This document shows positions 10,590 through 29,144 of a stretch of 64,000 bases of DNA, piece by piece. The stretch is taken from NCBI RefSeq assembly GCF_004349085.1, contig NZ_SMFM01000009.1, positions 1-64,000 of the forward strand. Direction: 5' to 3'. Positions within the stretch are counted from its first letter, which is position 1. Each line of letters starts with the position of its first letter. The translations under genes and the position numbers were made by a program. The notes under the pieces were generated by a model. That model was not told where the DNA came from and did no database searches. It was given only the letters and a program-made list of their open reading frames with translations. This DNA comes from Flavobacterium caseinilyticum (GTDB lineage: Bacteria > Bacteroidota > Bacteroidia > Flavobacteriales > Flavobacteriaceae).

Positions 10590-10629
10590 ATTTATTTGCA
10601 CATTATAAACTCACAATTAATTTAATGGA

Positions 10630-10637: not shown

Positions 10638-10673
10638 CGCTTTAAGTTTAATTACTCAGATTACTTACAGTAT

Positions 10674-12674
10674 TTATTCCTGTTGCACCAAATGTTGCAA
10701 ATCCGGATCATTCTTAATCCTTTCCAATTCCGTTGCAATAATTAGAACGATGTCTTTTTTTATCTGGCGATAATTGCTTTCGATTTCTTGTTTCATTTTA
10801 TCTTCACCCTGCTCATCAACAAAGGATAGGATTTGTGGGATCTTTTGGTAAGCTTTAGTTTCAGCAGCAACCTTATCATTATCCACTACAATTTCAGCGT
10901 GGAATATTTTTTGTTCGATGCGTTCATCAAAATTATCCGAAACAGCACCTACAAACATACCTTGGGTTAATGTTGAGATTTTAGAAGCCGGAATTAAACT
11001 ATCTAATTGTGTCGATATTGAAGTTGAGGTATCATTTCTGTTGATTGATAAACTTTGACGTTTCTGCAATACTTTTCCAAAACGTTCAGATAAACTTTTT
11101 GCTGTTTCGCCTACTACCTGACCGCTAAAAATATTACCAACGGTATTTTGGATAACCTTTGCCTCTTTATCTCCATAGTCCCTTATTAATTGAGAAAAAT
11201 CCTGAAATCCTAAACAAACTGCTACCTTATTACTACGGGCAGTTGCAATAAGATTGTCCAATCCTCTAAAATATATCGTGGGCAACTCATCAATGATAAC
11301 CGAGCTTTTGAGCTGCCCTTTTTTATTAATGAGTTTTACAATTCTCGAATTATACAATCCCAATGCTGCTGAATAAATATTTTGACGGTCGGGATTGTTA
11401 CCTACACATAAAATCTTTGGCTCTTTGGGATTGTTGATGTCCAGTGAAAAATCATCGCCAGTCATTACCCAATACAATTGTGGCGAAATCATTCTTGACA
11501 ACGGAATTTTTGCGGATGCAATTTGTCCCTGTAATTGGTCTTGTGCTCCGGATTGCCACGCATCCATAAAAGGCGATAGATAATTTTCCAAATCGGGATA
11601 GGAGGTTAAAATTGTAAAAACGTCCGAATATTTTTTGTTCAGCAATTCAATAGCGTGTGGAAATGTACAATACTTGCCGTCCTCATAGATTTTTAGATAC
11701 CAAATAATGGCTGCCAATAGGATAATTGGGCTTTCCACGAAAAAATCGCCTTGCTTTTGTATCCACGACCTGTTGAGGTTAAGCATTATGGTATAAGCCG
11801 CTTCGTAAGCATCGGAAATATCCGTCATAAAATCTGGATTGAGTGGATTGCATCGGTGGCTCTTTCTCGGGTCGTCAAAGTTGATGACGTAAAATTTGGG
11901 TTGAACTTTGTACTTATCGCCGTGTTTCAAAAGATGGTTATAAGCAATAGTAGAAAGGTCGTCAAACTTGAAATCGTAGATGTACATTGAGAAGCCCTTT
12001 TCTATATGCTGCTTGATATAGTTGTTTACGACGGCATAAGATTTTCCGGAACCTGGAGTTCCTAAAACAATCGTTGCCCTGAAAGGATTTACAATGTTAA
12101 TCCAACCCTTGTGTTCCTTTTTATTATACCAGAATTTGGTAGGCAGGTTTACAGAGTATTCATTTTCCATTAGTTTGGTTTCCTGCATGAAGCTTTCGTT
12201 TTCCATATTGAAAACGTCATTCATAAGGTTATTTTTCAATAACCTACTTATCCAAACACCAGCCATCATCAAGGTAATATAACCTAATGAAATAGTAAGG
12301 ATATACAAAAAAGTGCCTATTACCGGAGTTAGTTTTAATAAAGACGTATTCAGAAAAAACAGCACAAAACCAATTCCCAAAGCAACATAGATTTTAGCCC
12401 ACGTTATCTTTTCGTTCTTTACGCCTTTCGTTCCTAAGCAACTCAAAGCAAGCAAAACCAAAGCGAATGCTTTAGTATATAAGGTATGTGAAAATAAACC
12501 TGCTGTTCTGTCGAAATTGCCAAGTATTTTATTGATGACTTCCAACGTCCAGCCACGTTCTAAAAAGAAACCATAGCAGAACCAATAAAGATGCATTAGT
12601 ACCAAAAGGATACTTACTGCCCGCATAAAAGCCATAATCTTGGCAAGTCCTCTTAAATCATCTTCTCCCTGCAT
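10674..12674 (-). CDS. mobC: Type IV coupling protein (MobC / VirD4-TraG type)
   Basis: 666 residues. Four N-terminal transmembrane stretches (about 14-35, 65-80, 95-112, 118-142) precede a cytosolic ATPase with Walker A GTPGSGKS (205-212), SSVIIDELPTIYF as Walker B and a TraM-recognition-type C-terminal region (NVGNIFSGQVVGETAKSLSERFGKV). It should bring the relaxase-DNA complex to the secretion channel made by the tra genes. It ends a minus-strand mobA-mobB-mobC series, about 105 bp beyond mobB. Length and order match conjugative transposons of Bacteroidetes. Confidence 0.92.
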   Translation of the reverse strand: MQGEDDLRGLAKIMAFMRAVSILLVLMHLYWFCYGFFLERGWTLEVINKILGNFDRTAGLFSHTLYTKAFALVLLALSCLGTKGVKNEKITWAKIYVALGIGFVLFFLNTSLLKLTPVIGTFLYILTISLGYITLMMAGVWISRLLKNNLMNDVFNMENESFMQETKLMENEYSVNLPTKFWYNKKEHKGWINIVNPFRATIVLGTPGSGKSYAVVNNYIKQHIEKGFSMYIYDFKFDDLSTIAYNHLLKHGDKYKVQPKFYVINFDDPRKSHRCNPLNPDFMTDISDAYEAAYTIMLNLNRSWIQKQGDFFVESPIILLAAIIWYLKIYEDGKYCTFPHAIELLNKKYSDVFTILTSYPDLENYLSPFMDAWQSGAQDQLQGQIASAKIPLSRMISPQLYWVMTGDDFSLDINNPKEPKILCVGNNPDRQNIYSAALGLYNSRIVKLINKKGQLKSSVIIDELPTIYFRGLDNLIATARSNKVAVCLGFQDFSQLIRDYGDKEAKVIQNTVGNIFSGQVVGETAKSLSERFGKVLQKRQSLSINRNDTSTSISTQLDSLIPASKISTLTQGMFVGAVSDNFDERIEQKIFHAEIVVDNDKVAAETKAYQKIPQILSFVDEQGEDKMKQEIESNYRQIKKDIVLIIATELERIKNDPDLQHLVQQE

Positions 12675-12778: not shown

Positions 12779-14065
12779 CTACTGACCTCTTATGCGTTTC
12801 TTTTTCTTCTTCATTTTGTTGGCAAAATCCATTTCTTCATAATCTTCACCTTGGGTTTCAGGTAGCAATCCTCCTAACGCTTCAACCAGTCCATCTTCGT
12901 GTTTTTCAGTATTTAAGAAGTCAAATAATTGATGAGGTTTTTCCGTTGGGACATCTTCTATATCGTTGGACTGTGATACTTTTTGTTGAGGTTGATTAGG
13001 ATCTTTAAATTCGGGTTTGATATTATTGTTCCAATAAGCATTAAAGGTATTGGCAGAAAGTTCTTTGTCTAAACGGGAACCGTTCCAAACCGTTTTAGAA
13101 TTGTGGTCAATAAAAGTTATTCCGTAAATACGACCAGTATCATTCCTACGAACCACAACATTAATGCCCTGTTCGGCTAATTGTTTTTTAAAGGTTTGTT
13201 CATCCTTTGTAGCTTGCAGAGCCGTAGTAACAGCTGATTTTAAAGTCTGTTTAGTTGGGTGGTTTTTTAAGGTTTCTTTCGATTTTTCAAAATGTAATTC
13301 CAATGCCGAAATTCCAACATCTTTTCCAAATAAGGAAGCTTTGAAGGGGTGACTTACTTTTTCACCTTTATCATTCAATGCGAAATATAATAGTCCTTGT
13401 TGGAATTTACCTTGCAGCTCGCCTTCCACTTTTTCCGTAGTAATATGGAACAACGAGAGTAAAGCATTGTATTCACCTAAAGTTTGAAACTGATAATAAT
13501 TCGGCAGGTGGCGGACAACCGAAGCTATCTGACTTTTTGCATCACCTTTCTGGTAATTCACAGGGCTAAAAATCTTATTGTTCTGCTTATGTTCTTTATC
13601 CGTTGCAGGTATCAGTCCGTGTTGCCTTTCGAGTTCTCGGCACACATTCATAGACCGCCTTTTCTCAAATTTATCTGAAATCTTTTTGCCTTCTTCATTC
13701 ACGCAAACCGAAACAATATGTATGTGCGTTCTGTCAATATCAGTATGCTTAAAAACTACAAAAGGTTGTTCCCCGTAGCCCATTTCCCGCATATACTGTT
13801 CTGCCAACTCCCTAAATTTTTCATCACTAACATTATCTTTCGGGTCGGGATTGAGCGAAATATGCAACGTATGTTTTTCGGTATTTCGATTTGCAATAAG
13901 ATAAGGCATAAAAGATTGGCTTAATTGTGCTACAGAGTAATGCCCGCTTGGTGTTTCAATTATCTTATTGGCAAACAGAATTTGTCCATTTTCCTTTTCC
14001 ACTTTAAGATTATTGTATGCCAAAGCACCATATAAATTACTGCTCCTTCCAATTTTTACTATCAT
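12779..14065 (-). CDS. mobB: Relaxase/mobilization nuclease (MobB)
   Basis: 428 residues beginning MIVKIGRSSNLYGALAYN, the conserved N-terminus of Bacteroidetes MobB relaxases. The metal-binding motif HTDIDRTHIHIVS (H107, H114, H116) is the three-His motif of MOB-family relaxases, and a tyrosine near the N-terminus (Y12 or Y17) could be the nicking residue. The C-terminal part is polar and helical. It nicks oriT and leads the transferred strand. It starts 2 bp after mobA, so the two are translationally coupled. Confidence 0.92.
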   Translation of the reverse strand: MIVKIGRSSNLYGALAYNNLKVEKENGQILFANKIIETPSGHYSVAQLSQSFMPYLIANRNTEKHTLHISLNPDPKDNVSDEKFRELAEQYMREMGYGEQPFVVFKHTDIDRTHIHIVSVCVNEEGKKISDKFEKRRSMNVCRELERQHGLIPATDKEHKQNNKIFSPVNYQKGDAKSQIASVVRHLPNYYQFQTLGEYNALLSLFHITTEKVEGELQGKFQQGLLYFALNDKGEKVSHPFKASLFGKDVGISALELHFEKSKETLKNHPTKQTLKSAVTTALQATKDEQTFKKQLAEQGINVVVRRNDTGRIYGITFIDHNSKTVWNGSRLDKELSANTFNAYWNNNIKPEFKDPNQPQQKVSQSNDIEDVPTEKPHQLFDFLNTEKHEDGLVEALGGLLPETQGEDYEEMDFANKMKKKKKRIRGQ

Positions 14066-14067
14066 TT

Positions 14068-14508
14068 TTAGACCTGCTTTTTCAGATGTTTTGCTTCAAA
14101 TTCTTCGGTCATTTGAATGATTTTTTGGCATAGCATCGCCATTTCAGCCGTTTGTTTTTCTAATTTGTAGAGAAATGCTGCGGCTTTTTTCTCCGAAAAA
14201 TTCTTGTACAATAGCTTTACAACTTGATTATAATTTACACCGACCGAGCGAAATTGACTGTGAAACGAGGTCAATCGCATATAGAAATCAACTGTTCCTT
14301 TATCAATTTGAATGGTCTTTATCGTTTTTTCAAAGATGCAAGACGTTATAAAATGTGCCTTTACCAGCATTCCCGATTGGTCAAAGAGCGAAAGAAATCG
14401 GCTGTGCTCTTCTTCATTAAAGGAAATTGTATATCTAATCTTTGCCGGGTCTTCTTTAGGTCGGCGTCCGGTCTTCTTTAATTGTTTTCTGTTGTTTTCG
14501 TTCATCAC
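14068..14508 (-). CDS. mobA: Mobilization accessory protein MobA
   Basis: 146 residues, basic at the N-terminus (KQLKKTGRRPKEDPAKIRYTISFNEEEHSRFLSLFD), which resembles a ribbon-helix-helix DNA-binding region, followed by a helical region (VGVNYNQVVKLLYKNFSEKKAAAFLYKLEKQ) shared with plasmid mobilization proteins. It likely binds oriT and positions the MobB relaxase. It directly precedes mobB and faces the oriT-like region at 14540-14700. Confidence 0.88.
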   Translation of the reverse strand: MMNENNRKQLKKTGRRPKEDPAKIRYTISFNEEEHSRFLSLFDQSGMLVKAHFITSCIFEKTIKTIQIDKGTVDFYMRLTSFHSQFRSVGVNYNQVVKLLYKNFSEKKAAAFLYKLEKQTAEMAMLCQKIIQMTEEFEAKHLKKQV

Positions 14509-14570
14509 AAATCCATTTATAATTTACACAAAACCCTGACTTCGGAAGGTGTTTTTCAGCCCCCGGCAGG

Positions 14571-14667
14571 GCAAGTTGTTTTGAGCATCCGAAATCGTTT
14601 CGAGATGCTCAAAACACAACTTGCCGTGTTCTGATGAACACAAAAATCCGCCCTTCGGGACGGATTA
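14571..14667. other. Candidate oriT: inverted repeats upstream of mobA
   Basis: GCAAGTTGTTTTGAGCATC at 14571-14589 faces its near-perfect complement at 14604-14624 (the right arm has 2 extra nt). The 14-nt centre holds a smaller GAAA-TCG-TTTC palindrome. Just beyond, 14644-14667 folds as AATCCG CCC TTC GGG A CGGATT. The location immediately upstream of mobA-mobB and the nested hairpins are as expected for a transfer origin and nic region in this element class. No nick site can be assigned from sequence alone. Confidence 0.5.
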
Positions 14668-14869
14668 AATGTAGCAGGGAAAAACGGCTCGATGCCGTTC
14701 TGCTTCGTGTCCATTTTATCAAGATGCTTTGTATAAATCCGTTAGTAAAATTCATTTTACAAAGTAACCAACTGTTGATAAGAGTATTGCAATGTGATAC
14801 TAGGACAAATTCTGCCTTTGGAAGCCAAACACTACCACGATAATGTAAACACCTATTTATCTGCATTTA

Positions 14870-15200
14870 TTTGTACTTACAAACACATATAGGGACATAG
14901 TTAGCTATGGAGGTAACAACGTAAGTACATCATTACCAATGTAAATAAATACAAATGTGCAGATGTAAAAAAGCGCTTATTGAAATACTTAAATATGCAA
15001 TTGCGTATGCAAAAAAGCAGATACATAAATAAGTAATTATGGTTGTACAAATCTATTTGTCTACAGCCATAAAAATGTATTCAAGTACATAAATAGCCTA
15101 GTACGTAATTACCTGCTTATCTCTATAATTCTGTATAGAGCTACAAACCTATATACGCACCTAAGTAATTGAGAATATAAATTTTAAAAACAGTTAAAAT
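14870..15200. other. AT-rich intergenic region with short repeats before the ParA gene
   Basis: No gene is seen between the oriT-like hairpins and traA. The stretch is rich in TAC/TAAATA words: TACATAAATA occurs at about 15023 and 15088, each followed by a GTAATTA, and TATCTGCATTTATTTGTA near 14860 is partly mirrored by AAATAAATACAAATGTGCAGATG near 14945. Such iteron-like repeats next to a ParA gene could be a centromere (ParB/TraB binding) or an operator for the tra promoter. The function is inferred only from place and repetition. Confidence 0.35.
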
Positions 15201-15968
15201 ATGAATGCAAAACACAAAACAGTATTTATCGCCTTTTCATCTCAAAAAGGCGGTGTGGGAAAAAGTACATTTACAACATTGGTTGCAAGTACGATGCACT
15301 ATCGGTTGGGTTATAATATAGCCGTATTTGATGCCGATTTTCCCCAGCACAGTCTGATGAAAATGAAGGCTCGTGATTTGGCGATGGTAATGGAAAACGA
15401 AGCTTTAAAAAAGCTGGCTTACAAACAATTTACCACCATCAACAAAAAAGCCTATCCGATTATGCAATCCAAAGCTGATAGTGTATTAGAAACCGCTCAC
15501 GAATTTTTAAGTAGTTCTTCAGTGCCGATTGATGTGGTCTTTTTTGACCTGCCCGGAACGGTTAACACGCCTGGTATTTTGAATGCATTGGCAGGAATGC
15601 ACCACATTTTTACACCTATCACGGCAGACCGAGTGGTAATGGAAAGCACACTGATTTTTACACAGCTTTTGCAGGATGTGATTATGAAAAAAGGCGAAAC
15701 TTCCATAGAAACCATCAATCTGTTTTGGAACCAGGTTGATGGCAGGGAAAGTACACCTTTATATGAGGTTTATAACCAACTCATCGACCAATTAGGATTA
15801 AGCCTGATGCAGAGCCAAATCAAAAACAGCACCCGTTTTCGCAAAGAAAGTGAAGTAAACAGCAAAGCCGTTTTCCGCTCTACGGTAATGCCACCTGATG
15901 AACGCTTGATGAAAGCCTGTCAGTTAGATCAATTTGTAAATGAATTTTTAAAAATCATTCAATTATAG
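15201..15968 (+). CDS. traA: ParA-family ATPase (TraA)
   Basis: 255 residues with a deviant Walker A, SSQKGGVGKSTFTTL, near the N-terminus, VFDADFPQHS, and VVFFDLPGT as Walker B. This is the ParA/MinD-type ATPase that begins the tra cluster of CTnDOT-like elements. It may place the excised element or the transfer complex in the cell. It is followed 4 bp later by a DUF3408 gene, in line with a ParA-partner operon, and preceded by the repeat-rich region at 14870-15200. Confidence 0.9.
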   Translation: MNAKHKTVFIAFSSQKGGVGKSTFTTLVASTMHYRLGYNIAVFDADFPQHSLMKMKARDLAMVMENEALKKLAYKQFTTINKKAYPIMQSKADSVLETAHEFLSSSSVPIDVVFFDLPGTVNTPGILNALAGMHHIFTPITADRVVMESTLIFTQLLQDVIMKKGETSIETINLFWNQVDGRESTPLYEVYNQLIDQLGLSLMQSQIKNSTRFRKESEVNSKAVFRSTVMPPDERLMKACQLDQFVNEFLKIIQL

Positions 15969-15972
15969 TCTA

Positions 15973-16413
15973 ATGGAAAAAGAAAATAAAAAAAAACATA
16001 CGCCCGATATTAACGAGGAACTGATGATGAGCCTGATGGTAGATGGCGTAAAAAAAGAGGGATTACAGTTACCCATAGAACAAACTGTTGCAACCCTCGA
16101 AAAGGAATATGTTCAGCCCGAAAAATTACTATTGGAGAAACCTACTGTGAAGGAAAAGACCAAAATTAAAAAAACAAACGAAACAGATTACGAAAGCCTC
16201 TTTTTCAAAAGAACAGACACGAATGCCCGAGATGGAAAAACGGTATATATTCGACCAGATTTTCACGAAAAATTGTCACGTATTGTACAAGTGATAGGCG
16301 AAGACAAAATATCAATTTACGGTTATTTAGACAATTTACTGGATTACCATTTTCAGGAATTTGGTAAACAGATTACCAAGAGTTATGATGATAAATACAA
16401 ACCCATTTTATAA
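15973..16413 (+). CDS. traB: DUF3408 conjugal transfer protein (TraB-like)
   Basis: 146 residues: a charged, disordered N-terminal half (KENKKKHTPDINEELMMSLM; many Lys/Glu) and a conserved C-terminal end YESLFFKRTDTNARDGKTVYIRPDFHEKLSRIVQVIGEDKISIYGYLDNLLDYHF, in pattern the DUF3408 domain with a ribbon-helix-helix-like DNA-binding appearance. Position directly after ParA suggests the DNA-binding partner in a partition-like pair. It is 3 bp from the next gene. Confidence 0.83.
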   Translation: MEKENKKKHTPDINEELMMSLMVDGVKKEGLQLPIEQTVATLEKEYVQPEKLLLEKPTVKEKTKIKKTNETDYESLFFKRTDTNARDGKTVYIRPDFHEKLSRIVQVIGEDKISIYGYLDNLLDYHFQEFGKQITKSYDDKYKPIL

Positions 16414-16416
16414 GTT

Positions 16417-17052
16417 ATGGAAATAGTAATTGTGATATGCCTGCTGATTGTGATTGCCCTGCTTGTGCATGACAAGATTGTAATCAAAAAAAATTCAGAA
16501 AGAAAACCGATACAGGAAAAAAGCAACCCTAAACTGCCCGATATTATGGGGCAACCTAGACCTAAGAGAAGCCTTTCGGTGCCAAACAATGCCACCGAAA
16601 GCCAAGTTGAAGAACTGGAAATAAATCCAGATAATTTTGACATAGAATACGACGAAAATGAAAACGTAGGTATTCAAATTCCGCAGGAAGAACTGGATGA
16701 AGTTTTCAGAAATATGCCTGATTTTGAAGATGAGGAAGAAGAATGGAACAGGTACGGAATATCCAGTGACGATAACGGTTTTGCCCAAGGGGTTACCTTT
16801 GAAGAACTAAGCTCCGTGGGGATGTTGCTACAAAAAGAAAAATTGGAGCCGTCTCAAAAGGAAACAGCGATAACTATAGTTCAGAAAATACAGGGAACCG
16901 AATTATTCAGCCTTTTGGAAAATTCTATGGAAGGCGCTTCTCGTAAAATAGCAGAGCTATTGGACAGTAGCCTTTCTTCTGAAACGGAAGCCAGTTCTTC
17001 CACTTTGCGGAAAAATGATTTGAGAGATTTTGATATCGGGGAGTTTGTGTGA
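16417..17052 (+). CDS. traD: Conjugal transfer protein TraD-like (single-pass, acidic)
   Basis: 211 residues with one N-terminal membrane helix (MEIVIVICLLIVIALLVHD), a basic patch, then a very acidic region (about 70-120: NPDNFDIEYDENENVGIQIPQEELDEVF...DFEDEEEEW) and a helical end. It occupies the traC/traD slot of Bacteroidetes conjugative transposons. The role within transfer is not established from sequence. The stop codon lies in the loop of a transcription terminator, so the last residues (DIGEFV) are encoded by its stem. Confidence 0.75.
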   Translation: MEIVIVICLLIVIALLVHDKIVIKKNSERKPIQEKSNPKLPDIMGQPRPKRSLSVPNNATESQVEELEINPDNFDIEYDENENVGIQIPQEELDEVFRNMPDFEDEEEEWNRYGISSDDNGFAQGVTFEELSSVGMLLQKEKLEPSQKETAITIVQKIQGTELFSLLENSMEGASRKIAELLDSSLSSETEASSSTLRKNDLRDFDIGEFV

Positions 17053-17076
17053 GCAAACTCCCCGATATCATTTTTT
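17032..17076 (+). terminator. Rho-independent terminator overlapping the traD stop codon
   Basis: A perfect 16-bp stem (17032-17047 with 17054-17069; arm GATATCGGGGAGTTTG) surrounds a 6-nt loop TGTGAG that contains the traD stop TGA (17050-17052), and is followed by a T-run at 17071-17076. It would end transcription of traABD before the convergent defence genes and isolate them from the downstream traE operon. Confidence 0.88.
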
Positions 17077-17092
17077 AATTAACAATAGCCGC

Positions 17093-19024
17093 TTAATCAA
17101 TATTAATTACGTTATCGTTCCCGAACCATCCATTTGCTTTTGCAATTACTTGTGCATCTGGATTATGAAAGAATACGGCTAAATTTTCTTTAGCTCGTGT
17201 ACAACAAACGTAAAATAATTTTTGAGTTCTTTCTAAGACACTTGGGGTAGCTGTGCCCAAGAACATTTTTTCAAAATTGTAATTATTCCATCCTCCATTA
17301 TCGAGAATAACTAAGACATTGTCAAATTCAGCACCTTTAGTTTTATGTTGCGTAGAAAATGGAGTTTGACCTTCTAAATATTCATACAACTTTTGAAACT
17401 CATTAAATTTGACATCTTTTACACGGTTATATAAATATTGGTTCTTCTCCTTAAATACAAGTAATCTGTCATCTATCAAGGAAATACCTTTTTCGTGAGC
17501 ATCAGTAATAACTTCCTCAATTGTTTTTTCTCCAACATTTATAAGATTATCGATATTCTCTTTCAACAATCTTTTGTTGGCAATACTTCTTATGTGTATT
17601 CTGTAATCCGTTACTCTCAAAAATTCATTATACTGCTTGTTTTTATAAAGAGATATACTATTCTGGATTTTGAACAAATGTTTAATCAAATTATCTCTTT
17701 TTGACCCTTTCTTGTTTTCATCATCTTTATCTTGTTTTTTATCGTCAGTCAGAGCGTCTTTATTCATATAAATTTTCCTTACCTCAGAAAATAGCTTGTC
17801 CTTTAATTGATTGTATAATTCTGCCTTTATTGGGTCTGCTAATAAAATATCTTTCTTTAAATTTCTTTGTATGTTTTTCAACTGAAATTTATCGACTACA
17901 ACATCAAAAGTGTCATTATCATCTATTGCAATTTCCGGTCTATTATTTTTCTTGTTATCCTTTATTTTATTAAGGATATCCGTCTTTAATCCAATGATAG
18001 GGTCACTATCGTAAATATCCATTAATTCTCTAAACCCTGCCTTACTAGCTATCAAATTGTGTGTAAGATTGAGTTCTTTTGTTTGCTTCGTATTATTGAA
18101 ATCCCAACCATAATTTTCCCTTAAGGATTTCTCTACTTTTTCAATATTGCCATCAGTTGAATATAAAAACAAAACTGTCCCCTGTTTTACTAAACCTTCA
18201 ACCATATTGGGTGCATTAATATCGATTGAGGGTTCTTGTATAATACCATCTGTCCGAAGTTTGTTAGCAAGGTTGATAACAAGCTGAGGATTTCTTCTAT
18301 TCTGTTTCTTTAGAATTTCTTTTACTTTATCTGCATCTTGACCTTTGTATTCATCTAAATTACCAATACCATCTTCATAAATTGATTGCATTGCATCGCC
18401 AAAGAAACCAATAATATTCTTCCTTTCGCTTTTCTTGAAATGAGTAAGAAAGGTATCTACAACAGCTTTGCTTGTATCTTGGTATTCATCAATAAAGATG
18501 AATTGGAATTTATCCTTTACAATACTGCTAAGCTTTGGGTATTTGTCAAAAAGATAGTTTGCAACCAAAAGCAATTCATCGTGGGATATAATACCATCTC
18601 TTAACCTGACATATTCCTTGTATTGTATTCCATCTTCTAGACCCTCATAGTAAGTATTAGGAATAGGGTTTGCATCATCAATGGAAATTCTACTAACCTC
18701 TTCATCATTAGCCAATGCGATAATAGCTACTTTAAGCTCTTTTTGAAAGTGTTTTATATTATCCCAAAGAAAATCGTGGATTGTAGATACGTTTAGGTTT
18801 TTATGATTAACCCTTTCTTCAATTTCTTTAACAGCCGCATTCGTATAAGTCATACAAGCAACTTTAGCAGTTGGATTTTCTAAAATTGCCTGACGAATTA
18901 CACTTACTAAAGAATAGGTTTTGCCACTACCAGCTCCACCACTAAGAAGGAAATTTCTACCTGCATCAATTGATTGAAATATTTCTTGTACTTCGAGTTC
19001 TAAATTTAATCTTTCTTCAACCAT
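17093..19024 (-). CDS. gajB: UvrD/PcrA-like helicase, GajB of a Gabija defence system
   Basis: 643 residues with superfamily-1 helicase motifs: Walker A GGAGSGKT (29-36), motif Ia CMTYTNAAVKEIEERV, motif II DEYQDT (179-184), motif III GDAMQSIY (209-216), motif V STQHKTKGAEFDNVLV and motif VI YVCCTRAKENL near the C-terminus. It overlaps the end of the upstream OLD-type ATPase/TOPRIM gene by 19 bp. That order and coupling is the GajA-GajB layout of Gabija, where GajB senses or unwinds DNA ends and regulates the GajA nuclease. It is longer than the well-studied Bacillus GajB (about 490 aa), with a Lys/Asp-rich insert (DKKQDKDDENKKGSKRD) in the middle. Confidence 0.85.
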   Translation of the reverse strand: MVEERLNLELEVQEIFQSIDAGRNFLLSGGAGSGKTYSLVSVIRQAILENPTAKVACMTYTNAAVKEIEERVNHKNLNVSTIHDFLWDNIKHFQKELKVAIIALANDEEVSRISIDDANPIPNTYYEGLEDGIQYKEYVRLRDGIISHDELLLVANYLFDKYPKLSSIVKDKFQFIFIDEYQDTSKAVVDTFLTHFKKSERKNIIGFFGDAMQSIYEDGIGNLDEYKGQDADKVKEILKKQNRRNPQLVINLANKLRTDGIIQEPSIDINAPNMVEGLVKQGTVLFLYSTDGNIEKVEKSLRENYGWDFNNTKQTKELNLTHNLIASKAGFRELMDIYDSDPIIGLKTDILNKIKDNKKNNRPEIAIDDNDTFDVVVDKFQLKNIQRNLKKDILLADPIKAELYNQLKDKLFSEVRKIYMNKDALTDDKKQDKDDENKKGSKRDNLIKHLFKIQNSISLYKNKQYNEFLRVTDYRIHIRSIANKRLLKENIDNLINVGEKTIEEVITDAHEKGISLIDDRLLVFKEKNQYLYNRVKDVKFNEFQKLYEYLEGQTPFSTQHKTKGAEFDNVLVILDNGGWNNYNFEKMFLGTATPSVLERTQKLFYVCCTRAKENLAVFFHNPDAQVIAKANGWFGNDNVINID

Positions 19025-21087
19025 AACAAGCCATTTTTAATGTAAGCCGGAATATTCCAATTATTAAATTTTTCATCACTGTGATATAAAATATCTAAAG
19101 CGAAATGGGTTTTCTTTTTAATACAATTATCTGCTAAGACATAGGGGCTTTTCGTGTCATCATCAAAATAAGAAGCATTTTTTATTCCCTGAAAAGTAGC
19201 TTTATTTCCTTTTACAAATTCTCTATTAAGATGTATAAAAGCATCTTCAAAACTTCTTGCGTGATAAGTATTTTCTTCCTGTTGGTAACATATACAAATT
19301 GTAGAACTCCCAACAGTAATTGTTCTATCGCCAACTGCCAAGGCTTTTAAATCGTCCCACGTTACAGCTTTTAGGAAATGATTTATTGCAGAATTGCTTG
19401 TTTTGGTACCTTCATTAACAGGACACGCTCCCCAAACATCTTGTTCTTTGTCATTTTTCCCTACGACCTTCATTGCATCAATGTCTGTTAATATCAATGA
19501 TTTAATACCCAAGAAGTCAATAAACTTCTCAAAGATTTGTGAATATGCACCGACTTCGATAGTTGATATATTTTGAGATAGAAGCGGTAAGAATGTATCC
19601 TCGTTTCCTTCCACTTCTAAACGTGCAGCTTCTTCTAAGTCAACTTTTCGCATAAAAGTTGGTATTAAAATCCTTTCTGTATCTCCTTCAATAAGAACAG
19701 CCTTATCAGCAAAAAAGATTTCAGCTCTGCTAATTGTTAGGTACTGTTTTAAGAATTGATATTGTTTTGGGTCGGCATCATATTGAGTTCTTAAATCTTT
19801 AAGATTTTTCGCAGTTACATTATTCGTTGCTATTGTTTTCAAATATTTTATATCATCGAAATCACTATCTGCAACAATATGTGATGAATGCGTTGTAATT
19901 AAGTACTGTAATGTTCTATCTATACCATCATTTCTTTTGATACCTTCTCCAAGTAGTTTTTTTATATTTTTTATAAAGACATACTGCATTTGGGGATGGG
20001 TATGAGCTTCCGGTTCTTCTATAATAAGTAAATTAATATCGGCAGGCTTCTTGTCCTTATCTTTTTTGAAATCTTGTACCAAAATTTCAATTTCAAAAAT
20101 CATACTTATTAGGTTCATATAACCTAAACCGTTGTAATGCTCTGGTAACTTATGGTCATCGTGAGTGTATACTACTGTAGTATTTCCTTCAAGTAATTCT
20201 CGATGTTGTAATGTTGAAATAATTGCTATATCAGTATCATTCAACTTAACGCCACCAAAATCTTGTACTTTTTTTATTACGTCTTTAAATAAATCTTTGT
20301 AGATGTCGCTTAACGTACTATCTGTTTCTGAAAGCTGGTCTTTAAAATCTTCAGTAGCTTGATCCTTATCACTACTGTCTTCTTGTTTTTTATAGAGACT
20401 TGACGTTTGTTTTGAGAGTGTGTTTTCTTTTTCTTTATTTGTTACATCTCTTCTTGCACTTATGTACTTAAAGTTGATAATATCCTTTAAATTAATGTTT
20501 TCACTAACAAGGTCGATTGGCTTAGTTTCGGTAATCTTATTTGCAGTCGTATCGTATTCAAAAGAAAATTTATGAATTTTATAATAAGCTTCTATGTTTT
20601 GCTTTAAAAAATCTTTTAGTTCCCGTGGCTTATATTCTTTCTTCTTAGCATTTTTCGCATTTTCACTGGCTGCGAAGATTGCATAGTCAGCTTTTATTTT
20701 TAAAAAAGCATCATAACTTACAGTGTATTCAAAACCTAAAACAATATTGTTATTGTCAGGATCTAAATCCATCAATACTCTGCTAACATTAGATAAATCA
20801 TCAGTATCGTTATATTCAATATAGATTTTCAGTTTAATACCTTTAGGAGAGAATTCATCGGGAACATCAGCCGATTTGATTAAACTTTCTAATTCGTTTT
20901 TAAAATCAATATTCAAATCATCATAAGAAAATTTACTTTTTTCATTTATAAATTTATCCAGAACTGACAGAATAGAAGTCTTTCCTGTATTGTTTTTTCC
21001 GATAACAAGAGAAAGTTCATTTTCAAGGTCCATTGAAAAAGTCTTCAGTAATCGAAAATTTTCAACTTCTATTTTTTTTATCTTCAT
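19006..21087 (-). CDS. gajA: OLD-family ATPase/TOPRIM nuclease, GajA of a Gabija defence system
   Basis: 693 residues. An ABC/SMC-like ATPase: Walker A GKNNTGKTS (30-38), a long helical insert (about 130-260), Walker B/signature LLIIEEPEAH (353-362) and the switch histidine TTHSSH (H400). A C-terminal TOPRIM nuclease follows: VLIEGDTE (E467) and LTDIDAMK (D535, D537). This is the GajA architecture, a sequence-specific DNA nickase held off by nucleotides until phage replication depletes them. A paired UvrD-like gene overlaps its 3' end and an XRE regulator lies 23 bp upstream. A solitary OLD nuclease (class 1) lacks the helicase, so Gabija (class 2 OLD) is the better call. Confidence 0.86.
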   Translation of the reverse strand: MKIKKIEVENFRLLKTFSMDLENELSLVIGKNNTGKTSILSVLDKFINEKSKFSYDDLNIDFKNELESLIKSADVPDEFSPKGIKLKIYIEYNDTDDLSNVSRVLMDLDPDNNNIVLGFEYTVSYDAFLKIKADYAIFAASENAKNAKKKEYKPRELKDFLKQNIEAYYKIHKFSFEYDTTANKITETKPIDLVSENINLKDIINFKYISARRDVTNKEKENTLSKQTSSLYKKQEDSSDKDQATEDFKDQLSETDSTLSDIYKDLFKDVIKKVQDFGGVKLNDTDIAIISTLQHRELLEGNTTVVYTHDDHKLPEHYNGLGYMNLISMIFEIEILVQDFKKDKDKKPADINLLIIEEPEAHTHPQMQYVFIKNIKKLLGEGIKRNDGIDRTLQYLITTHSSHIVADSDFDDIKYLKTIATNNVTAKNLKDLRTQYDADPKQYQFLKQYLTISRAEIFFADKAVLIEGDTERILIPTFMRKVDLEEAARLEVEGNEDTFLPLLSQNISTIEVGAYSQIFEKFIDFLGIKSLILTDIDAMKVVGKNDKEQDVWGACPVNEGTKTSNSAINHFLKAVTWDDLKALAVGDRTITVGSSTICICYQQEENTYHARSFEDAFIHLNREFVKGNKATFQGIKNASYFDDDTKSPYVLADNCIKKKTHFALDILYHSDEKFNNWNIPAYIKNGLLWLKKD

Positions 21088-21109
21088 AATAGTTGGTTAT
21101 AGTATTTGA

Positions 21110-21406
21110 TTAGTTTTTATTCTCATCTTTTCTTAATCTTTTTTGCGATATTTTTAAAACTTGTTCTGCTACAGGTTCATTTAGTAGCAATTCAATTATT
21201 TTATCTGACAGCCATAAAACCAATAGTTCATTAATATCGGTATTGAAAAATTTTGCAAGTTTTTCAATATGTTTTCTTGGCAACAACCTTTCCCCGTTTT
21301 CTACCTTACTGATAAAAGCATTATCTAACTCCAAAGCTGCGCCAACTTCTCTAAGGAATAAACCTTTACTTTCTCTCAATTCTTTTATGCGTTTTCCAAA
21401 TGTCAT
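21110..21406 (-). CDS. XRE-family regulator of the Gabija-like genes
   Basis: About 98 residues from the ATG at 21406. A longer in-frame start at 21484 is rejected because it lies upstream of a strong promoter motif (21437-21444). Residues 1-65 form a Cro/C1-type helix-turn-helix (FGKRIKELRESKGLFLREVGAALELDNAFISKVENG, then a tail resembling restriction-modification controllers), followed by a helical LSDKIIELLLNEP segment. It heads the gajA-gajB operon on the same strand. A likely autorepressor that limits toxicity of the nuclease; an inverted repeat overlaps the promoter. Confidence 0.8.
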   Translation of the reverse strand: MTFGKRIKELRESKGLFLREVGAALELDNAFISKVENGERLLPRKHIEKLAKFFNTDINELLVLWLSDKIIELLLNEPVAEQVLKISQKRLRKDENKN

Positions 21407-21419
21407 TTTGAATTTATAA

Positions 21420-21444
21420 GACTTGTCTAAATAAGTCAAATATA
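21420..21444 (-). promoter_or_regulatory. Promoter -7 box TATATTTG with overlapping GACTT...AAGTC operator
   Basis: Minus-strand TATATTTG at 21437-21444 matches the Bacteroidetes -7 consensus, preceded by a T-rich stretch and followed about 30 bp later by the XRE start at 21406. GACTT (21420-21424) and AAGTC (21433-21437) form an inverted repeat that touches the -7 box and covers the expected transcription start, an apt site for the XRE protein to repress its own operon. Confidence 0.6.
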
Positions 21445-21484
21445 ACAAAAAAACTTTAAAAAAATAAGGATTTAAGTTTCCCAA

Positions 21485-21611
21485 TTATGCCACCCACAGC
21501 CAAACAATTCCTTTGACTGTCACTTTGTTATAACGCCTTTATTTCTGAAACACCTTTGTCACGAAAGCCCGCAAGGTGTGGGAAAGAATAACAATTTAAT
21601 GTGTTTCAATT
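21485..21611 (+). promoter_or_regulatory. Probable leader/promoter region of the traE-Q operon
   Basis: This 127-bp gap separates the divergent XRE gene from traE and must hold the promoter of the long tra operon, since a terminator closes traABD. It contains CTTTG words spaced about 11 bp apart (CCTTTGACTGTCACTTTG) and a 7-bp hairpin ACACCTT...AAGGTGT at about 21549-21580. No unambiguous TAnnTTTG was found. Confidence 0.35.
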
Positions 21612-21917
21612 ATGAAAAAACAGAGAAAAAAAGCTTTGCTGGCAGCCGTGGCTATGCTGTCGGGAATTGGTGCCTTCGCACAAGGAAATGGTACAGCCGG
21701 TATCAACGAAGCAACCCAAATGGTAACGTCTTATTTCGATCCTGCCACACAACTCATCTACGCCATTGGTGCCGTAGTAGGTCTCATCGGAGGTGTTAAA
21801 GTGTACAACAAGTTCAGTTCGGGTGATCCTGATACGAGCAAAACGGCGGCTTCGTGGTTCGGTGCGTGTATTTTCCTCATCGTAGCGGCAACCGTCCTTC
21901 GTTCATTCTTTCTTTAA
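21612..21917 (+). CDS. traE: TraE (DUF4134), pilin-like T4SS subunit
   Basis: 101 residues with a signal peptide (KALLAAVAMLSGIGAFAQG), a conserved GTAGINEATQMVTSYFDPATQLIYAIGAVVGLIGGVKVYNKFSSGDPDTSK core and a second hydrophobic helix at the C-terminus. This is the DUF4134/TraE pattern of Bacteroidetes conjugative transposons, a VirB2-like small membrane subunit. It opens the main tra operon and is followed 11 bp later by traF. Confidence 0.92.
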   Translation: MKKQRKKALLAAVAMLSGIGAFAQGNGTAGINEATQMVTSYFDPATQLIYAIGAVVGLIGGVKVYNKFSSGDPDTSKTAASWFGACIFLIVAATVLRSFFL

Positions 21918-21928
21918 TCCCCTGCCTT

Positions 21929-22261
21929 ATGAGTAATTATAACATCAATAAGGGTATTGGAAGAACGGTGGAATTTAAAGGGTTGAAAGCGCAATACTTG
22001 TTCATTTTCGCAGGTGGATTGCTCGGCACATTAATCCTGGTGATGATACTATATATGATCGGGGTTAATTCTTACATCTGTCTTTTTCTTGGAGCAGGTG
22101 GTGCTTCGCTGATTGTGTGGCAAACCTTCTCGCTGAACAGAAAATATGGCGAATACGGATTAATGAAAATAGCGGCTAATAAACGGCATCCTCGCTACAT
22201 CATTTGTCGCAAGCCTGTACATCGTTATTTAAAATTTACCACTAAACCTAATGTACGATGA
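21929..22261 (+). CDS. traF: TraF (DUF4133), VirB3-like T4SS membrane protein
   Basis: 110 residues from the ATG at 21929 (MSNYNINKGIGRTVEFKGLKAQY); the longer open frame begins inside traE and is rejected. Two transmembrane helices lie in the middle (FIFAGGLLGTLILVMILYMIG and ICLFLGAGGASLIVW), then a YGLMKIAANKRHPRYI tail typical of DUF4133. Like VirB3 it should anchor the VirB4-type ATPase. Its stop TGA overlaps the ATG of traG. Confidence 0.92.
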   Translation: MSNYNINKGIGRTVEFKGLKAQYLFIFAGGLLGTLILVMILYMIGVNSYICLFLGAGGASLIVWQTFSLNRKYGEYGLMKIAANKRHPRYIICRKPVHRYLKFTTKPNVR

Positions 22262-24762
22262 TAAATACAGCAAAATCAACAACACTGGAAAGCAAGTTTC
22301 CATTATTGGCGGTAGAGAACAATTGTATTCTGTCAAAAGATGCGGACATTACTGCCTGCTTTGAAGTACATCTGCCGGAGCTGTTTACCGTGGCTTCTGC
22401 TGAATATGAAGCTATCCATTCCGCTTGGCATAAGGCTATCAAAACCTTGCCAGATTTCACGATAGTCCATAAACAGGATTGGTACATCAAAGAAAATTAT
22501 GCGCCAGATCTGGCAAAAGATGACCAAAGTTTTCTAGCAAAATCCTACCAACGCCATTTCAATGAACGTCCTTTTCTGAACCATTATTGTTATCTGTTCA
22601 TAACTAAAACGAGCAAAGAGCGTATGCGAATGCAGAGTAATTTCAGTTCGCTTTGCAGAGGAACACTGATACCGAAGGAAATCAGGGATAAGGAAGTGAT
22701 ACATCGCTTTATGGAAGCCATAGCACAATTTGAACGTATCGTAAACGATAGCGGGTTTATCAAACTGCAACGGTTGACCGAAGACGAAATCATAGGTACA
22801 GATGGAAAGCAGGGATTATTGGAGCAATACCTAACATTATCAAGAGAAGTTGGAACACCGATGCAAGACATTGCATTGGGTGGCGAAGAAATTCGTATTG
22901 GTAACAAAAGATTGTGCCTGCACACTTTATCTGATACCGACGATTTACCCGGAACAGTATCTGCTGATACCCGTTTTGAAAAACTATCTACCGACCGAAG
23001 CGACTGCCGTTTGTCGTTTGCTGCACCTGTGGGATTGCTGTTAAGCTGTAATCATATTTACAACCAGTATTTGTTTTTGGATAATAGCGAAGCCAACCTG
23101 CAAAAGTTTGAAAAGTCTGCAAGAAATATGCACTCGTTGGCTCGCTACAGTCGGGCAAATCAAATCAACAAAGAGTGGATAGAAAAATACCTGAATGAGG
23201 CACATAGTTTTGGACTGTCATCCATCAGAGCGCATTTCAATATTATGGCTTGGTCAGATGATGCCAACGAACTAAAACAAATAAAAAATGATAGTGGTAG
23301 CGCTTTGGCATTAATGGAATGCAAACCACGCCACAACACTACGGATGTAGCAACACTATATTGGGCAGGAATGCCGGGTAATGCAGGCGATTTTCCGAGT
23401 GAGGAAAGTTTTTACACGTTCATTGAACCTGCTTTGTGTTTTTTTACAGAAGAAACCAATTACGACAATTCGCCATCGCCATTTGGCATTAAGATGGCTG
23501 ACCGATTGACCGGAAAGCCTATTCATTTGGATATATCGGATTTACCGATGAAACGGGGTATCATCACGAACCGGAACAAGTTTATACTGGGTCCTTCGGG
23601 AAGTGGAAAATCGTTTTTCACTAACCATATGGTTCGCCAATATTATGAGCAAGGTGCTCACGTTTTGTTGGTTGATACTGGCAATTCTTATCAGGGTTTA
23701 TGCGAACTCATCAAAGGCAAAACCAAAGGCGAAGACGGCGTTTACTTTACTTATACCGAAGATAATCCTATTGCCTTTAATCCTTTCTACACCGATGATG
23801 GTGTGTTTGACATTGAAAAAAGAGAAAGTGTCAAAACCTTGATACTTACCCTTTGGAAACGTGATGATGAACCGCCGACCCGTTCGGAAGAAGTTGCATT
23901 ATCAAATGCCGTAAGCGGTTACATCGAACGCATTAAACAAGATGATATTTTTCCATCCTTCAATGGTTTCTATGAATATGTGAAAGGCGATTATCGTAAG
24001 GTATTGGAAGAAAAACAAGTAAGGGAAAAAGACTTTGACATTGCCAATTTTCTCAATGTTTTGGAACCTTATTACAAAGGTGGCGAATATGATTATCTGT
24101 TGAATTCCGATAAACAATTAGATCTGCTTTCCAAACGCTTTATTGTGTTTGAGATTGATGCCATCAAAGACCATAAAATCCTCTTTCCAATTGTGACCAT
24201 CATCATTATGGAAGTCTTCATCAACAAAATGAGAAGGCTAAAAGGTATCCGAAAACTCATCCTGATTGAAGAAGCCTGGAAAGCCATCGCCAAAGAAGGA
24301 ATGGCTGAATACATCAAGTATTTATTCAAAACGGTAAGGAAGTTTTTTGGCGAAGCCATTGTGGTAACACAAGAAGTGGACGATATCATCCAATCGCCCA
24401 TTGTAAAGGAAAGTATCATAAACAACAGCGATTGTAAAATCCTGCTCGACCAGCGAAAGTATATGAACAAGTTCGATGATATACAGGCAATGCTAGGACT
24501 TACAGATAAGGAAAAAGCGCAAGTACTTTCTATCAATATGAACAACGACCCATCACGACTTTACAAGGAAGTATGGATTGGCTTGGGTGGAACACACTCT
24601 GCGGTATATGCCACAGAAGTTAGTTTGGAGGAATATCTCGCATACACCACCGAAGAAACCGAAAAACTGGAAGTGATGCAACTCGCATCTGAACTGGATG
24701 GCAATGTAGAACTCGCCATTAAACACATCGCTATGCAACGGCGTGATAGTGCAAATCAATAA
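22258..24762 (+). CDS. traG: TraG conjugation ATPase (VirB4-like)
   Basis: 834 residues. The C-terminal half carries Walker A GPSGSGKS (445-452), VLLVDTGNSY, Walker B RKLILIEEAWKAIAKEGMAEYI and a TQEVDDI motif; the N-terminal half (SKFPLLAVENNCILSKDADITACFEV) is the conserved start of TraG-family conjugative transposon ATPases. It powers pilus assembly and substrate transfer at the inner membrane. Start is coupled to traF by a 4-bp overlap. The name follows CTn usage and is distinct from the VirD4-like coupling protein at 10674-12674. Confidence 0.95.
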   Translation: MINTAKSTTLESKFPLLAVENNCILSKDADITACFEVHLPELFTVASAEYEAIHSAWHKAIKTLPDFTIVHKQDWYIKENYAPDLAKDDQSFLAKSYQRHFNERPFLNHYCYLFITKTSKERMRMQSNFSSLCRGTLIPKEIRDKEVIHRFMEAIAQFERIVNDSGFIKLQRLTEDEIIGTDGKQGLLEQYLTLSREVGTPMQDIALGGEEIRIGNKRLCLHTLSDTDDLPGTVSADTRFEKLSTDRSDCRLSFAAPVGLLLSCNHIYNQYLFLDNSEANLQKFEKSARNMHSLARYSRANQINKEWIEKYLNEAHSFGLSSIRAHFNIMAWSDDANELKQIKNDSGSALALMECKPRHNTTDVATLYWAGMPGNAGDFPSEESFYTFIEPALCFFTEETNYDNSPSPFGIKMADRLTGKPIHLDISDLPMKRGIITNRNKFILGPSGSGKSFFTNHMVRQYYEQGAHVLLVDTGNSYQGLCELIKGKTKGEDGVYFTYTEDNPIAFNPFYTDDGVFDIEKRESVKTLILTLWKRDDEPPTRSEEVALSNAVSGYIERIKQDDIFPSFNGFYEYVKGDYRKVLEEKQVREKDFDIANFLNVLEPYYKGGEYDYLLNSDKQLDLLSKRFIVFEIDAIKDHKILFPIVTIIIMEVFINKMRRLKGIRKLILIEEAWKAIAKEGMAEYIKYLFKTVRKFFGEAIVVTQEVDDIIQSPIVKESIINNSDCKILLDQRKYMNKFDDIQAMLGLTDKEKAQVLSINMNNDPSRLYKEVWIGLGGTHSAVYATEVSLEEYLAYTTEETEKLEVMQLASELDGNVELAIKHIAMQRRDSANQ

Positions 24763-24789
24763 TTCATTAACAATTTAAAATTTAAGAAA

Positions 24790-25422
24790 ATGAAAAAAAT
24801 CATTTCTATGGTGTGTATGGCATTAACGCTTGCCGTAGCACCGTCCGCAAAAGCACAATTCGTGGTTACAGATCCTGCAAATCTGGCTTCAGGCATCCTC
24901 AATAGTGCGAACGAAATTATACAGACTTCTTCCACTGTAAGCAATGTGGTTAAGAATTTTAAGGAAGTGGAAAAAGTGTATAAGCAAGGCAAAGAGTATT
25001 ACGACAAACTACAGGCTATAAACAACCTTGTAAAAGATGCTCGTAAAGTGCAACAAACTGCTTTGTTGGTAGGTGATGTTTCGGAAATGTATGTGCAGAA
25101 TTTTGGCAAGATGATGAACGATCCAAATTTTTCGCCACAGGAATTGGTAGCCATCGGCAACGGTTATTCTTCATTGCTAAATGAAAGTACGGAACTGCTA
25201 AAGGAATTGAAGCAGATTATAACGTCGTCCAGCCTTTCGCTAAATGACAAAGAGCGTATGGATGTTATCGACCGTGTGTACAAAGAGGTAAAGGATTATC
25301 ACAGTCTTGTTCGCTATTACACCAACAAGAACATATCTGTAAGCTACCTGAGAGCGAAAAAGAAAAACGATGCCAAACGAGTGCTTGACTTGTATGGAAC
25401 TTCTAACCAAAAATACTGGTAA
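24790..25422 (+). CDS. traI: TraI (DUF4141), exported T4SS protein
   Basis: 210 residues with a signal peptide (ISMVCMALTLAVAPSAKAQF) and a long helical body (VVTDPANLASGILNSANEIIQTSSTVSNVVKNFKEVEKVYKQGKEYYDKLQAINN) characteristic of DUF4141/TraI, comparable to VirB5-type proteins. It ends 2 bp before traJ. Secreted to the periplasm, probably a minor pilus or channel component. Confidence 0.9.
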   Translation: MKKIISMVCMALTLAVAPSAKAQFVVTDPANLASGILNSANEIIQTSSTVSNVVKNFKEVEKVYKQGKEYYDKLQAINNLVKDARKVQQTALLVGDVSEMYVQNFGKMMNDPNFSPQELVAIGNGYSSLLNESTELLKELKQIITSSSLSLNDKERMDVIDRVYKEVKDYHSLVRYYTNKNISVSYLRAKKKNDAKRVLDLYGTSNQKYW

Positions 25423-25424
25423 AA

Positions 25425-26420
25425 ATGGAATGGAATAATCTTCACGAAGTACTGCGTTCGCTGTACGATGATATGATGCCACTTGCCGGTGATATGGCAG
25501 GAGTAGCTAAAGGTGTGGCCGGATTAGGCGCTTTGTTCTATGTGGCATTAAAGGTTTGGCAGGCTTTAAGCCGAGCCGAACCAATTGATATGTTTCCATT
25601 GTTACGTCCGTTTGCTTTGGGACTTTGCATTATGTTTTTCCCAACAATCGTGTTGGGAACCATCAATGCAATTCTCAATCCGATAGTAACAGGAACCCAT
25701 TCCATTCTCGAAGACCAGGTACTTGACCTCAATAAATTGCAACAGCAGAAAGACCAATTGGAATACGAAGCAATGGTAAGAAATCCCGAAACCGCATATA
25801 TGGCATCGGATGAGGAATTCGATAAGAAATTGGAGGAATTGGGCTGGTCGCCTTCTGATGTGGGAACAATGGCAGGAATGTATATGGACAGGCAAGCCTA
25901 CAAGATTGAGAAAGCAATAAAAGAATGGTTTCGCAATTTACTGGAAATACTTTTTCAGGCGGCAGCATTGGTTATTGATACTATAAGAACATTTTTTCTG
26001 ATAGTGTTGTCCATACTCGGACCAATTGCCTTTGCTATTTCCGTGTGGGACGGTTTTCAATCCACGCTCTCGCAATGGTTTACAAGGTATATAAGTGTTT
26101 ACCTCTGGCTTCCTGTTTCAGATTTGTTCAGTTCAATGTTGGCAAGGATACAATCGCTGATATTGGAACGGGACATCGAAATGCTTGCCGACCCAACCTA
26201 TATACCCGATACTTCCAATACTGTGTATATCATTTTTATGATAATTGGTATCGTGGGGTATTTTACAATTCCAACGGTAACGGGCTGGATTATTCAGGCA
26301 GGGGGTGCCGGAAACTTTACCCGTAATGTTAACCAAGCTGCAATGAAATCGGGAAATCTTGCCGGAGCCGGAGCTGGTTCAGTTGCAGGAAATATTGGTG
26401 GCAGGCTAATCAATAAGTAA
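25425..26420 (+). CDS. traJ: TraJ, polytopic T4SS membrane protein (VirB6-like)
   Basis: 331 residues with several transmembrane segments (about 30-45, 60-85, 175-205, 260-290) and a Gly/Ala-rich C-terminus (AGAGAGSVAGNIGGRLINK). N-terminus WNNLHEVLRSLYDDMMPLAGDMAGVAKGVAGLGALFYVALKVW is the usual TraJ start in these elements. It is the likely inner-membrane channel scaffold. 21 bp separates it from traK. Confidence 0.92.
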   Translation: MEWNNLHEVLRSLYDDMMPLAGDMAGVAKGVAGLGALFYVALKVWQALSRAEPIDMFPLLRPFALGLCIMFFPTIVLGTINAILNPIVTGTHSILEDQVLDLNKLQQQKDQLEYEAMVRNPETAYMASDEEFDKKLEELGWSPSDVGTMAGMYMDRQAYKIEKAIKEWFRNLLEILFQAAALVIDTIRTFFLIVLSILGPIAFAISVWDGFQSTLSQWFTRYISVYLWLPVSDLFSSMLARIQSLILERDIEMLADPTYIPDTSNTVYIIFMIIGIVGYFTIPTVTGWIIQAGGAGNFTRNVNQAAMKSGNLAGAGAGSVAGNIGGRLINK

Positions 26421-26441
26421 ACAAAATTAATCATTTAAGAA

Positions 26442-27065
26442 ATGGAATTTAAAACACTCAGAAATATCGAAAACAGCTTTAGACAGATAAGGTTGTATGC
26501 CATTGTGTTTGCCGTTCTATGCATTAGCGTTGTAGGATATGCCGTATGGCAGTCCTACAGCTTTGCAACAGAACAACGCCAAAAAATTTATGTACTGGAC
26601 AATGGAAAATCATTGATGTTGGCTCTTTCGCAAGATGCGTCCATCAACCGCCCGGTTGAGGCAAGGGAACACGTAAGACGTTTTCACGAACTCTTTTTTA
26701 CACTTGCACCCGACAAAAATGCCATTGAAAGCAATATGAAACGGGCGTTCAATCTTGCCGATAAAAGTGCCTTTGATTATTACAAAGATCTTTCCGAAAA
26801 AGGCTATTATAACCGTATCATATCGGGTAATGTACAGCAACGTATCGAGGTGGATAGTGTGGTCTGCAATTTCGACAATCATCCTTATGCAGTGCGTACT
26901 TACGCTAAGCAATTCATCATCCGTTCCAGCAATGTGACAAAGCGAAGCTTGGTAACGTCCTGTTTCCTTGTAAACTCTGTCCGTTCAGACAATAACCCGC
27001 AAGGTTTCAATATTGAAAAATTTGCCGTGGTAGAGAATAAGGACATTGAAGTTATTCAACGTTAA
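26442..27065 (+). CDS. traK: TraK, VirB8-like T4SS protein
   Basis: 207 residues: short cytosolic head (LRNIENSFRQIRLYAIVF), one membrane helix (about 19-38) and a periplasmic domain with REHVRRFHELFFTLAPDK, conserved in TraK of CTnDOT-like elements and structurally like VirB8. It links inner- and outer-membrane parts of the channel. Confidence 0.93.
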   Translation: MEFKTLRNIENSFRQIRLYAIVFAVLCISVVGYAVWQSYSFATEQRQKIYVLDNGKSLMLALSQDASINRPVEAREHVRRFHELFFTLAPDKNAIESNMKRAFNLADKSAFDYYKDLSEKGYYNRIISGNVQQRIEVDSVVCNFDNHPYAVRTYAKQFIIRSSNVTKRSLVTSCFLVNSVRSDNNPQGFNIEKFAVVENKDIEVIQR

Positions 27066-27076
27066 AATCAAAGATT

Positions 27077-27508
27077 ATGAAACAGTTACTTGATTTAGAC
27101 ACATTCGTGAAAACACTGACAGATAAAGGATACAACGGTTACTTCCAAACGGAAGCATCTTATCCTGGCAAGTTAAAAGAAAGCATTAGTGAATACTTGG
27201 AAGCCTCTCACAACGGTACAAAAAAACCGAATAGACACGAACTTTTTTTATTATCGACTTACCTCCAATGGAATGGAGATGACAAGCCGAGGATTGAATG
27301 TAATATGTGGATAAGACATGAAAACGGCATTTTCGATGTACAAAAGATGGACATTGAAAGGACAGACCGCTACGGACAACTATTGAAGAAATCAGAACTA
27401 ACAAATCTTTCAACAGGTTCGGTTCCTATATTAAAGGAAGCCGTAGCCGAAGTGTCTGAAGATCCTAAACAACACATTTCTTCCCAAAAAAGAGGGTTTA
27501 AAATGTGA
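27077..27508 (+). CDS. Unknown 143-aa protein between traK and traL
   Basis: It lies in the tra operon with 11-bp and 21-bp gaps to its neighbours, so it is very probably translated. It has no signal peptide or membrane helix. Visible features are a compact mixed fold (VKTLTDKGYNGYFQTEASYPGKLKESISEYLEA), a WNGDDKPRIECNMWIRHENGIFDV segment and a low-complexity tail. I do not recognise the family. Cytosolic location between two membrane T4SS genes suggests an element-specific accessory rather than a channel part. Confidence 0.7.
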   Translation: MKQLLDLDTFVKTLTDKGYNGYFQTEASYPGKLKESISEYLEASHNGTKKPNRHELFLLSTYLQWNGDDKPRIECNMWIRHENGIFDVQKMDIERTDRYGQLLKKSELTNLSTGSVPILKEAVAEVSEDPKQHISSQKRGFKM

Positions 27509-27529
27509 TAGCCAATAATAATTTAAGAC

Positions 27530-29120: not shown

Positions 29121-29144
29121 TATTGAACTCAAATAATTAAGAAA

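Follow-up and report, generated by a model that had tools for sequence, protein, structure and literature searches.

Gene layout and slot boundaries

The window, meaning the whole stretch of 64,000 nucleotides analysed here (Flavobacterium caseinilyticum, contig NZ_SMFM01000009.1), carries three minus-strand genes between a traD-position gene (16417-17052, plus strand; 211 aa, name taken from the initial annotation, no Pfam match) and traE (21612-21917, plus strand; an ORF with a Pfam DUF4134 match). In their own reading direction these are an XRE-family HTH gene (21110-21406; 98 aa if started at its ATG, 124 aa if started at a TTG upstream; Pfam HTH_3), gajA (19006-21087; OLD-family ATPase/TOPRIM nuclease, 693 aa) and gajB (17093-19024; UvrD-like SF1 helicase, 643 aa). 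XRE and gajA are 22 bp apart, and the intact, co-directional gajA and gajB overlap by 19 bp. The open reading frames bear out the initial annotation on the position and strand of all three genes and on the overlap of the OLD ATPase/TOPRIM gene with the helicase gene, and, together with the HTH_3 match, on the XRE gene in front of the pair. The GajA residues that it had listed (Walker A at 30-38, E467, D535 and D537) are all in place in the sequence.

The edges of the insertion were defined by comparison with an ICE whose TraG is 100% identical to that of the window in a rounded table (L131). Homology between the two covers 14000-17062 (94.7%) and 21489-22558 (97.4%). The sequence that separates these two blocks is unrelated, and the L131 slot holds a different Gabija pair, 23-26% identical to that of the window. 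The cargo unit without homology in L131 thus spans 17063-21488, and its G+C content is 31% compared to 38-41% in the flanking tra genes. On the right it is bounded by a conserved traE leader of about 120 bp (21489-21611, plus strand), recognised from the homology starts and kept upstream of traE in the aligned slot variants; in L168, where the junction is empty, the BLAST match on the right does not begin before 21550. On the left lies a hairpin with a T tail (17031-17070, plus strand; 18 pairs, z -7.1), which we read as the putative terminator of traD because traD contains its 5' arm and is followed by a similar hairpin sequence at the empty junction L108. An assignment to gajB was rejected, since it is the traD strand that carries the T tail. 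The terminator claimed for one side of the island thus corresponds to a hairpin that is read as belonging to traD and not to gajB. The window and a Flavobacterium sandaracinum contig (L027) share 99.9% identity over 14476-31087 and diverge beyond; because the identity ends there, the contig represents another copy of the element and not the same locus.

Identity of the gene pair

PADLOC and Pfam were used to name both proteins, PADLOC names being annotations. The top PADLOC model was GajA (PDLC00079, 952 bits; model length 702 aa) for the first protein and GajB (PDLC00135, 785 bits; model length 603 aa) for the second, while Pfam assigned AAA_15 and OLD-like_TOPRIM to GajA and UvrD-helicase to GajB. 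E467, D535 and D537 of GajA were invariant in a 56-row alignment, motifs of the UvrD type were present in GajB (among them GGAGSGKT at 29 and DEYQDT at 179), and a GajB match was found in all 106 of the 106 loci fetched with GajA. The initial annotation had considered that the greater length of both proteins, compared to the Bacillus pair, might mark a distinct subtype. This was rejected, since the lengths are ordinary for the proteins' own PADLOC models and therefore mark no subtype.

An AlphaFold model of GajA built from the 56-row alignment (pLDDT 81.9) was compared to solved structures. The five lowest Foldseek E-values all belonged to Gabija GajA chains, with modest TM-scores of 0.42-0.43 by query. 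By VIA, the model aligned to 8tjy over 433 residues (Z 18.8, rmsd 5.1) and to the OLD structure 6p74 with a Z of 17.9, the two being tied within 1. PDB sequence searches, whether by GajA itself or by its profile, did not list solved GajA; it was the fold search that retrieved it. For the GajB model (pLDDT 87.9), Foldseek placed UvrD/PcrA first and the solved GajB 8sm3_B at rank 37 (E 6.3e-11), solved GajB was absent from the best 50 VIA rows, and PcrA outscored GajB in the profile search. Best matches to stand-alone OLD nucleases or repair helicases had been named beforehand as evidence against Gabija; they were found for the fold of GajB, which is nearest to repair helicases, and not for that of GajA, which is nearest to Gabija. 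Judged by the gene pair and by GajA, the pair is Gabija, as the PADLOC models for both genes and the GajA fold search support; the helicase alone would not decide.

Survey of related traD-traE junctions

We located related junctions through TraG and not through Gabija. Sixty-seven had both traD and traE in view: 11 with TraG 86-95% identical, and 56 of 60 further stretches, all from one genus, of which 4 were without traD (G1041, G1140, G1042, G1007, three places of G496, all rows below 82% and any place already retrieved were not part of the 60). In 33 junctions a gene was found that matched a named defence system, 21 by direct PADLOC scan and 12 by BLAST similarity to a scanned relative; in another 10 the match was limited to a candidate gene of PADLOC (PDC) or to a PD-Lambda-3_B gene, 3 were empty and 21 contained other genes (6 only a 270-aa family, 15 further kinds of gene, e.g. 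for metal transport, or unassigned ones). Unassigned content concerned 13 of the 56 traD-bearing stretches, where only part of the genes was scanned. The named matches comprised three Gabija types, Avs2, Avs3, Tmn, Hachiman, Timatal, Lamassu LmuB, IetAS, Septu PtuA, HerA, SspC, Argonaute, type I and type IIG restriction-modification (RM), Olokun and a Mokosh-like helicase. All of them are matches of single genes, mostly the largest of a junction, and thus name genes and not complete systems. In three sets of slot proteins, 7 of 10, 5 of 10 (a set that included three Gabija-locus proteins) and 23 of 29 (cut-offs 1e-25 and 1e-15) matched PADLOC models, compared to 1 of 10 ICE backbone proteins used as a control at the looser cut-off of 1e-8 (TraG-mad8, 1.5e-13).

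By the matches made, Gabija itself was present in three of the 67 junctions (L114, L131 and L149), the remaining 64 having other content or none, which excludes the pair as a fixed tra component. More distantly, no cargo gene was seen in five ICE stretches with TraG 71-76% identical, and slots were undefined in seven with TraG 55-57% identical because TraD was not found there. By these sequence comparisons, the traD-traE gap is a recurrent cargo slot, with the conserved flanks and variable, defence-rich interior expected of a defence hotspot. The status of the genes as ICE cargo is supported by the 67 junctions and the L131 breakpoints, and the comparison of related ICEs proposed in the initial annotation did reveal other cargo at this junction. 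Its view that the genes interrupt a conserved traD-traE order held in so far as they lie between traD and traE; the order is not otherwise fixed, as the junction is a recurrent cargo slot.

The survey also bears on the reading of the pair as an OLD-type nuclease and helicase serving DNA repair or ICE transfer instead of defence. Such a role would agree with the closeness of GajB to UvrD/PcrA and with the match of the TOPRIM part of GajA to class 2 OLD nucleases. However, defence-type genes, named or candidate, occupy the slot in 43 of the 67 relatives, and the tra genes are kept in ICEs without the gajA-gajB pair, so we regard this reading as very improbable.

Several further observations were made on slot contents. 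The host genome has three TraG copies with three cargoes, namely Gabija (C27, the window), Tmn (C5, L107, where traD is not in view) and an LmuB-type set (C12, L163, assigned by its cluster with L144). The family of about 270 aa lies on the tra strand and is the sole slot gene in L116, L138, L148, L158, L169 and L170; a longer relative in L145 was without a Pfam match. Slot genes without a PADLOC match in L136, L173, L183, L117 and L119 are candidate new defence genes; they comprise genes of 607 aa, 893 aa and 693 aa (the last with GAP1-N1) and an NA37 gene with 301- and 378-aa genes. Since the slot is bounded within a few tens of bases and its defence genes differ among closely related ICEs, it is a practical place to seek new anti-phage genes.

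The XRE gene and its upstream site

A predicted -7 box TATATTTG, followed after 8 bases by the palindromic AGACAAGTCT, lies upstream of XRE on the minus strand (21419-21444). The Bacteroidota -7 consensus is TAnnTTTG. The combined pattern had one match in the window and none in 100 shuffles; as it was written from the window sequence, it is its conservation that constitutes real evidence. A related form of the site occurred in 9 of 190 loci, all of them XRE-Gabija. Since L002 and L114 denote one place, the site is found in the window (L001) and seven relatives (L002, L027, L028, L030, L031, L035 and L052), most of these matches arising by construction because the pattern was written from aligned loci and only L031 lies outside the alignment. 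A short site pattern was also present in ten IMG/VR contigs, which may be chance. A dedicated promoter, as claimed initially, is plausible by the conserved motif alone; a sigma-70 scan of the region gave no excess, with 20 sites compared to 23.8 expected, and no clear -33 element was seen upstream of XRE.

An XRE gene close upstream of gajA is uncommon in this Gabija family: using one narrow HMM, it was found within 250 bp in 9 of 92 loci, 6 of which lie in the traD-traE slot. Among the 53 stretches searched by the XRE HMM, a close relative occurred only in L152 (this search and the clustering left out seven stretches, i.e. four without traD and the very long L143, L175 and L178). The L152 protein is 70% identical, its site has one palindrome base changed, and SIR2 and HerA genes follow on the same strand. 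Homology of L152 to the window begins within XRE (21196) and not at 21489.

These data help to judge two other roles for the XRE protein. It might be an ICE regulator of the divergent traE promoter, with gajAB merely lying behind, since it is transcribed away from traE and its putative site is 45 bp from the traE leader. This is improbable, because the leader is kept at junctions with other cargo or none, a close XRE relative occurs only in L152 among the 53 stretches searched, and XRE is 22 bp from gajA. It might otherwise be a leftover control protein of a lost RM system that no longer regulates, as the order XRE-type IIG RM-methylase-gajAB is found in the traD-traE slot of four ICEs and the window XRE weakly matches RM control proteins in PADLOC (2.1e-07). 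Control (C) proteins of RM systems are small XRE proteins encoded ahead of their target genes, and they bind their own promoter. However, identity between the two XRE types is no more than 38-41% in the XRE-type IIG RM loci, and the site of the window type is retained in the window and seven relatives, which makes a leftover protein unlikely.

Proposed model

We consider it likely that the locus is a Gabija anti-phage system, preceded by an XRE autorepressor, which a Bacteroidota ICE carries in its traD-traE slot as exchangeable cargo. Autorepression is suggested because the site adjoins the predicted start: XRE would bind the predicted palindrome near its own start and keep the XRE-gajA-gajB operon low. 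GajA would be restrained by nucleotides, as in other Gabija systems; the nuclease of LsGajA is inhibited by dNTPs (PMC13304284). Upon phage entry, GajA-GajB would attack linear DNA free of host RecBCD and block its circularisation, as was proposed for Gabija in PMC12407980; that the window genes act likewise is presumed from their family. The cargo would be exchanged probably by homologous recombination between the conserved flanks, sometimes within the XRE gene.

A more tentative proposal is that the traE side of the slot acts as a docking module, in which a regulator with its promoter and operator stays in place and unrelated defence operons are exchanged behind it. We hold this to be possible but rather doubtful. 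The putative regulator XRE in front of either Gabija or SIR2-HerA is the clear case. A second may be a pair of an AbiEii-like and a 173-aa gene that adjoins traE, before type I RM in L135 and before Olokun in L171; in L156 the pair is also beside traE, the neighbouring ThiF set running the opposite way. This pair may itself be cargo. The proposal that a regulator is kept while the cargo changes is drawn from the XRE and AbiEii-like cases. If the docking module is real, a regulator already in place would control newly acquired immunity upon entry of the ICE into a host, and if the regulator is kept, one could test how a mobile element governs immunity that might be harmful to its host or its own transfer. 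Gabija itself is known; the interest of the locus is in the slot and its possibly exchangeable regulator.

Comparison with known systems

Gabija on a conjugative element is not unusual, in contrast to what was first assumed. The Gabija of P. aeruginosa PA14 lies in PAPI-1 (PMC12407980), and in a PAPI-1 hotspot flanked by TraG (GI-Hotspot 2) Gabija is one of the top two systems by abundance (PMC12629846). Both cases share with the window a conjugative-element cargo whose hotspot is bordered by a conjugation gene, while the host phylum and the flanking genes are different. The word 'regulator' was found 0 times in PMC12629846, and titles and abstract openings in the literature contained nothing pointing to the traD-traE slot or to an XRE-Gabija pair.

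The Gabija of Bacillus cereus VD045 (8sm3 and others) resembles the window in its gene pair, the ATPase-TOPRIM fold of GajA and the UvrD-like helicase partner. Compared to it, the window GajA is about 19% identical over the overlay, both window proteins are longer, and the XRE gene in front is a feature of the window. Known traits of Gabija also include a GajA-GajB 4:4 complex and the restriction of phages. Class 2 OLD nucleases, whose solved C-terminal domains are 6njv and 6nk8, have a TOPRIM domain with conserved E and DxD and stand beside a UvrD-type helicase gene, and gajA-gajB shows the same TOPRIM residues and adjoining helicase gene.

Within the wider GajA family, slot carriage of Gabija requires 5 changes, gains or losses, on an 85-row GajA tree from a short search, and the slot has therefore probably gained or lost Gabija at least twice. 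Type IIG RM genes of several protein subfamilies lie upstream of gajAB in 11 loci, four identified by PADLOC scan (L032, L045, L077 and L105) and seven by similarity to L032 (L029, L047, L048, L043, L070, L071 and L079). With 10 of the 11 loci included, this association changes 8 times on the tree, so that a recurrent type IIG RM-gajAB partnership is possible. The locus missing from the tree, L048, has gajA matches in two overlapping pieces in different frames (10001-12078), either a real break or a sequencing error of the draft genome. The nearest arrangement to the window is found in L032, L029, L048 and L047, where an Eco57I-like type IIG RM and an XRE gene are joined to gajAB: the slot, the gajAB family and the leading position of XRE are the same, whereas these loci have two extra genes and a different XRE type.
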